A stretch of DNA of 25,931 nt from a virus, in IMG/VR virus record IMGVR_UViG_3300027608_000133, positions 1-25,931 of that record. The stretch is one strand, 5' to 3'. Every line of letters starts with the position of its first letter. The stretch's first letter is position 1. Under the pieces are notes generated by a model. It worked only from the letters and a program-made list of their open reading frames with translations. It was not told the origin of the DNA and made no database searches. Shown here in pieces: positions 14,037 through 16,431 of the stretch. Made by a program: the position numbers and the translations under genes.

Positions 14037-14256
14037 CGTAAGCCTCCGTTAATAATTTGCTGTTGTATTTTTTAATGTTATTTACTTTAATAATATTTTT
14101 TGTATCTGGGATCAATGGTGTGATAGTCCAATTATGTAATTTGTTTTTTATATCTTTAGAAATTTCTAAAGCTGTTGGTTGAGATGTCATAAGGGCAGAC
14201 CACACAAGTTGGCCTGTAGTGTCAAACTCTTCTACTAAAAATGCAATTGGCTTCAT
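14026..14256 (-). CDS. Small hypothetical protein (76 aa)
   Basis: The sequence MKPIAFLVEEFDTTGQLVWSALMTSQPTA... then a Lys/Asn-rich second half. The beta-helix order (AFLVEE; VWSALMTS; KDIKNKLHNWTITPLIP) looks like a small folded domain of a type common in phages. No family named. Its start overlaps the hydrolase stop by one base (TAATG) and its end overlaps the glycosyltransferase. Confidence 0.55.
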   Translation of the reverse strand: MKPIAFLVEEFDTTGQLVWSALMTSQPTALEISKDIKNKLHNWTITPLIPDTKNIIKVNNIKKYNSKLLTEAYGGN

Positions 14257-14639
14257 TAATAAAAATTCATACGTCCTATTTTAATTTTTTTATTGTGGCC
14301 AAACCAGCTATTTTTTTCCTTTATTGAATCGTCATGAAAATACAGGCTGTCAGCAACTGGATTAGGATACTTCTTAAAAACTACGGTGTCAAGCACTAAT
14401 AGCTTAATTTTAAGATACGCCTTTTCATTTACAGGCTCATGCCTTTCATCCAAAACAGCGAATTGCTTATGCGAGTACACAACATCGCACACAGTACGAC
14501 CCCACTTACCAGACTTAACTCTATTCCTGATTACGTTGATTACGCCAAGTTTTTCTTCAAGCGTCCTCGTGTTCACCTCATGGTAAACCGCACTACTGTA
14601 GCAGTTTAAATCCTGTTCTAAATTATGAATGTAGTCCAT
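14256..14639 (-). CDS. SleB-type cell wall hydrolase (endolysin candidate)
   Basis: 127 residues without signal peptide. AVYHEVNTRTLEEKLGVINVIRNRVKSG (17-44) has the family's catalytic-type Glu21 after the YHE motif; TVCDVVYSHKQFAV (49-62) and ADSLYFHDDS...WFGHNKKIKIGRMNFY (97-127) complete the SleB/Hydrolase_2 pattern. The family cleaves peptidoglycan glycan strands. It is on the strand opposite to the holin and about 7 kb away, in an accessory operon, so it may be the endolysin or a protein acting earlier. Start and stop are both coupled to neighbours by TAATG overlaps. Confidence 0.8.
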   Translation of the reverse strand: MDYIHNLEQDLNCYSSAVYHEVNTRTLEEKLGVINVIRNRVKSGKWGRTVCDVVYSHKQFAVLDERHEPVNEKAYLKIKLLVLDTVVFKKYPNPVADSLYFHDDSIKEKNSWFGHNKKIKIGRMNFY

Positions 14640-14878
14640 TATCTTTTCTCTTTTATAATCCTCTGAATGTACTGCTGATCATATCCAGATAAAATTAAAC
14701 ATATATCTTTAACCACGTTGTCATGTTCATTAAGCCACCGAATAGAAGATTCACGTTCTTTGCTATGTCCTTGTAATGCATCCTTCATAGCAAGCAATAA
14801 TATTGCATGAAACAGTCTGGCGTGTGGTGTTGTTGCTAATTCAGCCCTTATGGACTCCTTAAACTCAAACTTAAACAT
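14639..14878 (-). CDS. Small helical hypothetical protein (79 aa)
   Basis: A helical protein: LATTPHARLFHAILLLAMKDALQGHSKERESSIRWLNEHDNVVKDICLILSG. The pattern 'FHAILLLAMKDA...SIRWL' recurs, to my recollection, in small phage proteins of unknown role. AGAGG lies just before the ATG. It is the first gene after the pqqA-containing gap on this strand and is coupled to the SleB gene. Confidence 0.55.
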   Translation of the reverse strand: MFKFEFKESIRAELATTPHARLFHAILLLAMKDALQGHSKERESSIRWLNEHDNVVKDICLILSGYDQQYIQRIIKEKR

Positions 14879-14925
14879 AGACCTCTTTCATGGTTTTACT
14901 GATATTCCAGATAGCCTGCTGGGTG

Positions 14926-14931
14926 TATAAT
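14926..14931 (+). promoter_or_regulatory. Candidate -10 element for the pqqA-like gene
   Basis: A perfect TATAAT in the string GGTGTATAATCACAC, 43 nt upstream of the pqqA-like ATG. GTGT and ACAC flank it as a short inverted repeat, which could be an operator. The -35 region is poor (TATTCC at 17 bp), so activation or extended contacts would be needed. A small TGGC-ATAA-GCCA hairpin follows in the leader. Confidence 0.4.
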
Positions 14932-14974
14932 CACACTTAATGGCATAAGCCAGAAACCTTTAAGGATTAATACC

Positions 14975-15046
14975 ATGTGGACAACTCCAGCAGCTACTGA
15001 AATGCGTTTTGGTTTTGAAGTAACAATGTACGTTATGAACAAGTAA
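14975..15046 (+). CDS. pqqA: PqqA-like precursor peptide of PQQ (23 aa)
   Basis: A 23-residue frame starting MWTTPAATEMR and ending FGFEVTMYVMNK. Glu15 and Tyr19, separated by three residues, are the pair joined by the radical-SAM enzyme PqqE (with PqqD) to begin pyrroloquinoline quinone synthesis; the surrounding 'GFEVTMY' and the MW-x-x-PA start are hallmark PqqA features and the length is normal. AAGGA lies 8 nt before the ATG. It stands alone on the + strand between two - strand genes, with its own -10 and a hairpin after it. No other pqq gene is in the window, so it would depend on host PqqB-E. It is probably a host-derived auxiliary metabolic gene. Confidence 0.9.
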   Translation: MWTTPAATEMRFGFEVTMYVMNK

Positions 15047-15055
15047 CTCCAACTG

Positions 15056-15080
15056 GGGGTGTCCTAAAAAGGGACATCCT
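15056..15080. terminator. Hairpin 3' of pqqA-like gene, possible terminator
   Basis: GGGTGTCCT (15057-15065), loop AAAAA, GGGACATCC (15071-15079) pair over nine positions with two G-U pairs. The following ATTGTTTTC is only moderately T-rich. It would fold in the pqqA transcript 10 nt after the stop. It also covers the last codons of the - strand SSB-like gene. Confidence 0.45.
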
Positions 15081-15285
15081 CATTGTTTTCTACAGACTTT
15101 ACAGCCTCTTTCATTTGCACAGATCCGCTAATAAATTTACCACTAGCACCCTCACGAATCCAGCCACTAATTCTAAATTCAATTCCATCTACATTAGCAT
15201 TGCCTGTGTAGTCTGGACGTTTAGGATTGTCACCTTTATCGTTCTTAAACAATACAAAAGTATTGGTATTATCATAATCCGCCAT
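15064..15285 (-). CDS. SSB-like small protein with acidic tail
   Basis: 73 residues: NTFVLFKNDKGDNPKRPDYTGNANVDGIEFRISGWIREG..GKFISGSV, a short beta-barrel-like pattern seen in phage DUF736-like or single-stranded DNA-binding proteins. It ends in an acidic tail with a terminal Phe (NNEDVPF), as in SSB proteins that recruit partners. AAGGAG precedes the ATG by six bases. It directly follows the exonuclease and annealing protein genes, which supports a role in recombination or replication. SSB identity is inferred. Confidence 0.6.
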   Translation of the reverse strand: MADYDNTNTFVLFKNDKGDNPKRPDYTGNANVDGIEFRISGWIREGASGKFISGSVQMKEAVKSVENNEDVPF

Positions 15286-15288
15286 ACA

Positions 15289-15837
15289 TTACTCCTTAAT
15301 AAAAATTGGCTTACGTTTCCATCTTACTGGCTCAACATCATCATCAAGAGATTTTAAAAACTCTAATGCTAACGGAGTGTACCATTCAATGAAATCTTTG
15401 TTGCGTTCTACTTTAGTTACTTGTGTTGCATTTGGTGTCCAAACATAAAACCATGCGTATGGTTGGTCACATACTTCAAGCTGTAACTGGACTTGAAAAT
15501 AATATCGTTCTGGTATCTCTGGGTATACTACTTGAGTGAAGGGACACTTCAGCTCAACTGGGATTGAATCAATGAACGCATCTGGGCTGGCTGCAAATGG
15601 CAACTCTGGATGGAGTATTAATTTATTACCAGACTCACAGATAACATCCATTTCTTTTTCAAATTGACTTAATGCTACAGGCTCGTTAGTAACTCCCCAT
15701 TCTGTGGCCTCGTTACCTTCAAATGGAGGGCTACGAAACGTCATGTCCCTCCAAAGTTTTTGCCTCTCGTAAACCGCTGCCCATGCATTACTAGCGGTAA
15801 TACGGTTATGTCTAGCATTGTTTTTTAAATGACTCAT
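15289..15837 (-). CDS. YqaJ-like viral recombination exonuclease
   Basis: 182 residues. The nuclease core has NRITASNAW (11-19), WGVTNEPVAL with Glu52, AASPDAFID with Asp86 and IPVELKCPF with Glu95-x-Lys97, then YFQVQLQLEVC: the usual order of lambda-exonuclease/YqaJ PD-(D/E)xK enzymes. These resect double-stranded DNA 5'-3' for single-strand annealing recombination. The start overlaps the annealing protein stop (ATGA), so the pair is a two-component recombinase. Confidence 0.85.
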   Translation of the reverse strand: MSHLKNNARHNRITASNAWAAVYERQKLWRDMTFRSPPFEGNEATEWGVTNEPVALSQFEKEMDVICESGNKLILHPELPFAASPDAFIDSIPVELKCPFTQVVYPEIPERYYFQVQLQLEVCDQPYAWFYVWTPNATQVTKVERNKDFIEWYTPLALEFLKSLDDDVEPVRWKRKPIFIKE

Positions 15838-16349
15838 GCAGCTTTTCTTAAATCATTAGCAAAGTCACGCAATTTTTCTTGTGCGTATGGACTTAACTTA
15901 TGGAAGGCCTGCTTTAACTCACCAGCCTCATGAGATAAAATTAATTGGCCTTTAATAACTTCAAGATCATCATCTGAAACCTTTTCAATAACTGGGTTAT
16001 TTTGTTGGTGAATAGCATTGAGTACTTCATTAGCACTAGCAAATTCAGTACCACCAATACCAAGACAAGCCAAAGCCCTACCGATAGCAGAAGTTTCACA
16101 ATTTTCCACATAAGATGTGCCATTGATTTGAGATGCCTTTCTAAATTCTTGTGCAAGGCCTGTGGCCACCACACGATTAAGTTCATTTAATACAGTTGCC
16201 TTAATAACACATTGATCTTGATCTAACTGGATCACGTCTGTTGTTAATGCATAATCTTTAAACTGCTCACGAAACTCTTGCACACGAAGTGCAACCGTTT
16301 TGTAATCCTTACCTTTAATATTTACTATACCTTGTTTAGCTGTTGACAT
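15834..16349 (-). CDS. Putative single-strand annealing protein (ERF/Sak-like)
   Basis: 171 residues from the ATG at 16349, six bases after AGGAGG; the GTG one codon upstream is less likely. The N-terminal half has VALRVQEFREQFKDYALTTDVIQ and a strand pair (CVIKATVLNELNRVVATGLAQE). The block YVENCETSAIGRALACLG, then EFASANEV, is typical of phage annealing proteins of the ERF or Sak type. The C terminus is helical and charged. Partnered with the YqaJ exonuclease, it would anneal resected strands. The subfamily is uncertain. Confidence 0.65.
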   Translation of the reverse strand: MSTAKQGIVNIKGKDYKTVALRVQEFREQFKDYALTTDVIQLDQDQCVIKATVLNELNRVVATGLAQEFRKASQINGTSYVENCETSAIGRALACLGIGGTEFASANEVLNAIHQQNNPVIEKVSDDDLEVIKGQLILSHEAGELKQAFHKLSPYAQEKLRDFANDLRKAA

Positions 16350-16431
16350 CACTTTCCTCCTTTTGTTTTTGTTGTTCTAATTGTTCCTGCTCTTGTTGCT
16401 GGTACTGCTGGTAAAACTGTATATCGTCCAT
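16336..16431 (-). CDS. Alternative Gln-rich small frame (31 aa)
   Basis: In another frame than the 56-aa candidate, starting at an ATG with GGAG ten bases upstream: MDDIQFYQQYQQQEQEQ followed by Gln, Lys and Glu. Composition looks natural (Gln-rich coiled coil), more so than the C-terminal half of the overlapping frame. It overlaps the annealing protein start by 14 nt. The two frames together may reflect a frameshift or two overlapping genes. Confidence 0.3.
   Translation of the reverse strand: MDDIQFYQQYQQQEQEQLEQQKQKEESDVNS

Follow-up and report, generated by a model that had tools for sequence, protein, structure and literature searches.

A phage-borne pqqA gene preceded by an operator common to pqqA genes of Methylophilaceae

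The viral DNA analysed here, a record of 25,931 bases that we refer to as the window, carries a 23-residue gene that is a real phage-borne pqqA. It is likely to be a small moron and an auxiliary metabolic gene, which would supply a consumable precursor under the control of a host PQQ regulon. The identity of the gene, its breadth among phages, the selection on its peptide, an empty site in a close relative and an operator common to phages and hosts are demonstrated below, while its expression, its maturation and its effects on PQQ are inferred.

The pqqA gene and its surroundings

The plus-strand open reading frame at 14975-15046 encodes the 23-residue peptide MWTTPAATEMRFGFEVTMYVMNK, which exceeds both curated PqqA cut-offs by wide margins (Pfam PF08042, E 3e-10, 40.3 bits against a cut-off of 21.1; NCBIfam equivalog TIGR02107, E 5.6e-10, 38.8 bits against a cut-off of 20). 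The peptide meets the PqqA family criterion E-x-x-x-Y, a glutamate and a tyrosine three residues apart, with Glu15 (codon 15017-15019, plus strand) and Tyr19 (codon 15029-15031, plus strand), and is identical at 23/23 residues to PqqA of many Methylophilaceae. The codon pattern for GFEVTMY occurs once in the window and in none of 100 window shuffles. On the same strand, the gene is preceded by a ribosome-binding site, AAGGA, at 14962-14966 and by an exact TATAAT -10 hexamer at 14926-14931, 39 nt after the start of the operator described below; no standard -35 was found upstream of it. The initial annotation, made from the sequence alone, had proposed a PqqA-like frame with all hallmarks of the family and a -10 of its own, and both claims held.

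The gene lies alone on the plus strand, opposite a minus-strand recombination operon and with minus-strand genes on both sides. Toward lower coordinates lie a 79-residue ORF of unknown function (14639-14878, no family found) and an endolysin-like cell wall hydrolase (14256-14639; PF07486, E 8e-16; PHROG endolysin). Toward higher coordinates lie an SSB-like single-strand DNA-binding protein with the C-terminal tail DVPF (15064-15285; PHROG 18154, E 4e-14), a YqaJ/RecE-like exonuclease (15289-15837; PF09588, E 3e-16; PHROG 434) and, adjoining the exonuclease, a conserved protein that is ERF-like by position only (15834-16352; PHROG 11717, E 7e-31, unknown function; no Pfam family). Since phage genes surround it, pqqA is a host metabolic gene in a genuine phage genome and not host contamination. 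Elsewhere in the window, an FkbM-type methyltransferase adjoins a conserved phage protein (12721-14036; PHROG 1574, unknown function), possibly for surface or glycan modification. No tRNA was found in the window, and a near-identity search of the window against the phage collection returned no match.

A plus-strand hairpin with a T-rich tail at 15054-15082 is a possible terminator, and the folding energy of 15047-15096 (-20.1 kcal/mol, z -3.5) supports a real hairpin. The evidence does not favor a terminator private to pqqA: the hairpin runs into the 3' end of the SSB gene on the minus strand, and the relative without pqqA has it too, so that it looks shared. Thus, the terminator candidate of the initial annotation held only in part. 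The hairpin coincides with the SSB tail codons (DVPF and stop), and it is possible that it terminates both strands.

The window record contains no second pqqA, and none of its ORFs was recognised as another pqq gene; as the record may be a fragment, this is weak evidence alone. Of 50 pqqA-bearing records tested for pqq and methanol genes, 44 are viral contigs and 6 are phage genomes. All of them have a single pqqA above cut-off, none has PqqE above cut-off (one weak partial match) and just one record has methanol dehydrogenase. The earlier claim that no other pqq gene is near, so that host PqqB-E would be used, held on this sequence evidence, with maturation itself remaining an inference.

The nearest isolate terminase to that of the window belongs to the OM43 phage Venkman (72.5%). 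This Venkman-type terminase and the Methylophilaceae PqqA peptide support the proposed methylotroph host, which is inferred and was not observed.

Distribution, gain or loss, and selection

Searching 50,697 phage records at the protein level identified pqqA in nine methylophage isolate genomes (P19250A, Venkman, MEP301, MEP401, MEP402 and four Melnitz phages) and in the metagenomic podovirus ctXG6705. The PqqA peptide of P19250A is identical to that of the window, and the TIGR02107 cut-off was met in five of the nine isolate genomes, that is, in all five tested. A pqqA label was absent from all phage records with the gene that were inspected. Hypothetical ORFs are annotated antisense to pqqA in Melnitz (L127:7961-8056) and ctXG6705 (L125:2067-2195); they are probably spurious calls that hide the real gene. 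The remaining two hits, under the single organism name Acinetobacter phage MD-2021a, were rejected because the contig inspected (L128) looks bacterial, with pqqA beside pqqB, pqqC, pqqD, a radical SAM gene, and molybdate, siderophore and chromosomal genes.

The terminases of MEP402, MEP301, P19250A and the Venkman/window type are mutually dissimilar beyond short weak matches, while some other genes are common to these phages. Melnitz is a T4-type myophage (PMC9004378). Given these unrelated terminases and the T4-type Melnitz, pqqA is present in about five packaging lineages. A degenerate GFEVTMY scan of IMG/VR returned at least 120 loci, and 120/120 encode PqqA in frame. Many viral copies lie on the same strand as their neighbours. 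As had been suggested, PqqA families and phage genomes were thus searched, which confirmed PqqA and found many phages carrying it.

Conservation in related phages, another check proposed at the outset, showed that close relatives keep the gene. Among relatives identified by the window exonuclease at 64% identity or more, pqqA is present in 20/20 whose contig extends past the site; two further relatives in this range end just after the exonuclease gene and were left out. At about 35% identity or less it is present in 0/10. By terminase, pqqA is present in 9/10 relatives at 83% identity or more (contigs of at least 20 kb) and in 0/9 at 68-73% (contigs of at least 17.8 kb), the hosts of the latter being unknown.

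A near-complete close relative (G046, TerL 94%) lacks pqqA and displays an empty site, and the gene is therefore dispensable. The gap between the SSB and hydrolase genes is 17 nt in this genome, compared with 199 nt in a pqqA-bearing relative (G045) whose terminase is as close to that of the window. This contrast indicates that pqqA is a gain-or-loss cassette. The criteria for a moron are met by insertion between phage genes, absence in a close relative, and an operator and -10 of its own, with promoter activity inferred. The moron-like position on the plus strand between minus-strand genes, noted in the initial annotation, is thereby upheld.

The peptide is under strong purifying selection and is maintained: pN/pS is 0.063 among 11 distinct pqqA copies in relatives whose retrieval did not depend on pqqA. 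Exactly the window peptide is encoded by 64 distinct DNA sequences in phages and hosts. A second viral scan fixed only the N-terminal half of the pattern and left Glu15 and Tyr19 free; residues 14, 15, 17, 19 and 22, which include E15, T17 and Y19, and the stop are invariant in 120/120 of its copies.

An operator common to phage and host genes

Upstream of the window pqqA, at 14887-14904 on the plus strand, lies an operator common to host pqqA and pqqU-like genes (TTCATGGTTTTACTGATA), which the initial annotation missed. It scores 15.1 with a host-trained matrix and is the sole site of 11 or more on either strand of the window. K-mers common to viral pqqA upstreams prompted two separate de novo motif searches, one on 128 host upstreams and one on 106 viral upstreams. 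They converged on a single imperfect palindrome, which reads CTCATGATTTTCMTTAG in the host set and TTMATGATTTTMnnTAK in the phage set.

With the host-trained matrix, sites scoring 10 or more precede 60/106 viral pqqA copies, compared with 0.4 expected from shuffles. Hits occur in 54/99 phage pqqA upstreams against 4/488 for other genes in the same contigs, and are present in every common strand arrangement of the pqqA neighbours in the phage contigs tested. About 45% of phage pqqA copies have no site scoring 10 or more. TATAAT is found in 43/106 viral upstreams (21 expected), mostly 30-50 nt before the ATG, and an SD-like site in 106/106 (7.5 expected). Standard -35/-10 promoters are not enriched in phage pqqA upstreams; the distance from operator to -10 clusters at 38-39 nt.

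Chromosomal pqqA genes of Methylophilaceae, which occur as dispersed copies (PMC4109929), match the phage gene in an identical peptide and the same operator. The two differ in layout: the operator lies mostly 80-95 nt before the ATG in phages, with the -10 at the above distance from the operator start, whereas in hosts it lies mostly 120-135 nt before the ATG, and a second conserved element, TTCAT, is found about 23 nt from the operator start.

In three host genomes, all but two of the operator sites with 0-1 mismatch are found upstream of pqqA copies. One of the two others (L417:2351-2367) lies before a gene resembling that of the E. coli PQQ transporter PqqU/YncD; the best PDB match of this gene has E 2.6e-133, and its best NCBIfam model is NF041535, but with a score below the cut-off of that model. 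Across Methylophilaceae, the operator lies 62-106 nt ahead of the aligned start in 25/30 host pqqU-like genes, compared with 4.3% of random stretches. Together, these results point to a candidate PQQ regulon in the hosts, in which the operator precedes pqqA copies and genes of PqqU-like TonB receptors; the regulator is unidentified. To our knowledge, a pqqA/pqqU operator has not been described, and none was found in the literature searched, which was limited to open-access papers.

A 1-mismatch site upstream of a glycine-zipper protein gene (host genome G079, L416:2208-2224) is of uncertain meaning. Sites with two mismatches away from pqqA in host genomes were treated as chance, as a reversed control pattern gives similar numbers.

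Because the window gene combines a host-type operator with its own -10, it probably responds to host PQQ or methanol regulation, although its transcription is inferred.

Precursor supply and alternative explanations

All 120 Methylophilaceae genomes sampled carry pqqA, with 1-12 copies each, whereas the other pqq genes are typically single-copy (PMC4109929); this imbalance suggests that precursor dosage matters in these hosts. One PqqA is consumed per PQQ made, and multicopy pqqA fits this stoichiometry. Since the pathway enzymes are reused and PqqA is not, pqqA would be the pathway gene most profitable for a phage.

We then propose a model in which the phage makes authentic PqqA, host PqqE with PqqD would cross-link Glu15 and Tyr19, and PqqB and PqqC would finish PQQ for methanol dehydrogenase. 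The phage copy would replace host PqqA lost during infection and may keep methanol metabolism running in infected cells. Cross-linking of the window peptide and its consumption to PQQ are likely, being inferred from its identity to host PqqA; higher PQQ and a benefit to the phage are likewise inferences. Precursor supply fits an authentic substrate, the absence of enzymes, host-type control and hosts dependent on precursor dosage.

One alternative is a decoy that lowers host PQQ, with PqqD/PqqE titrated by the phage peptide or a regulator titrated by the operator copy. Excess precursor could indeed occupy the chaperone and the enzyme, and the phage also brings an operator copy. However, the reacting residues would be dispensable in a decoy, whereas E15 and Y19 are invariant across all copies of the N-terminal-pattern scan; the whole peptide is identical to that of the host, so the enzymes would simply use it; and hosts themselves hold up to 12 pqqA copies. 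We consider a decoy unlikely. The initial annotation had left open whether PQQ is boosted or the machinery titrated; the invariant cross-link residues and the host pqqA/pqqU operator fit a boost better, with the function still inferred.

It is also unlikely that pqqA is a passive passenger, a multicopy host gene captured at random with its promoter and without benefit. The many dispersed host copies would make capture easy, and the empty site shows that the gene is dispensable. Arguing against this are the strong purifying selection, the presence of pqqA in all 20 of the closer exonuclease relatives with sequence at the site and in isolates with unrelated terminases, and the preservation of the SD and often of the operator.

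Superinfection exclusion, in which extra PQQ locks the outer-membrane transporter PqqU closed and shuts out phages for which it is the receptor, appears very unlikely. In its favor, an E. coli phage that targets PqqU is blocked by PQQ (PMC12124388), and the operator is common to pqqU-like genes. Against it, a search for PqqU at E 1e-100 gave no match in the streamlined genomes G074 (LSUCC0665) and G075 (Ca. Methylopumilus), although pqqA is present in phages of this group of hosts. A non-coding reading, under which the region merely resembles pqqA and serves the minus-strand operon as an antisense RNA or a terminator, draws on the antisense position and the hairpin. It is all but excluded by the selection on the peptide at the codon level, by the SD that each copy has and by the many copies on the same strand as their neighbours.

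Phage pqqA as such is already known. In 2020, pqqA and methanol dehydrogenase were reported in the T4-like phage VP_266 from Lake Baikal, with a predicted Methylophilaceae host and a proposed role in raising PQQ for methanol oxidation (PMC7678222), and pqqA, pqqD and pqqE have been listed among viral genes in reservoir sediments (PMC13188868). The publications describing MEP301, MEP401/402, Venkman and Melnitz do not, as judged by term searches, mention a phage pqqA. VP_266 and the window phage both encode the precursor peptide and are predicted to infect Methylophilaceae. VP_266 is one T4-like case that also encodes methanol dehydrogenase, whereas in the phages described here pqqA is solitary, occurs with unrelated terminases, including those of published isolates, and often has a host-type operator. 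What appears to be new is the breadth of occurrence, the solitary form and the operator. The one record with methanol dehydrogenase noted above is a 72-kb viral contig (G014; locus L043; L248, L249) in which pqqA is accompanied by a gene for a PQQ-dependent alcohol/methanol dehydrogenase, the combination reported from Lake Baikal.

Phage supply of a host component that is turned over or consumed during infection is also seen with auxiliary metabolic genes such as cyanophage psbA. Phage pqqA resembles psbA in this respect; unlike psbA, its product is not an enzyme or a subunit but a 23-residue substrate of a cofactor pathway.

Methanol users of the Methylophilaceae, among them OM43, LD28/Methylopumilus and Methylotenera, abound in lakes and coastal seas. 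Annotation pipelines skip this 23-residue gene, which occurs in at least 120 viral contigs and in the genomes of nine methylophage isolates; published genomes therefore understate how widely viruses may touch methanol oxidation. Phage pqqA suggests that PQQ production in infected cells is most vulnerable at the step of precursor supply, an idea that the isolates Venkman, MEP301 and P19250A make directly testable, and the common operator reveals a candidate PQQ regulon in the hosts.

It is tempting to go further and to suggest, with only a slight balance of evidence in favor, that phages of Methylophilaceae, widely and in several lineages, plug a solitary precursor gene into an undescribed host PQQ regulon defined by the operator CTMATGATTTTCMTKAG before pqqA copies and pqqU. 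The PQQ supply of the infected cell would then be run by the host's demand sensor and drawn from phage copies. If this bolder reading is true, substrate supply, and not enzyme supply, would be the limiting step that these viruses repair.
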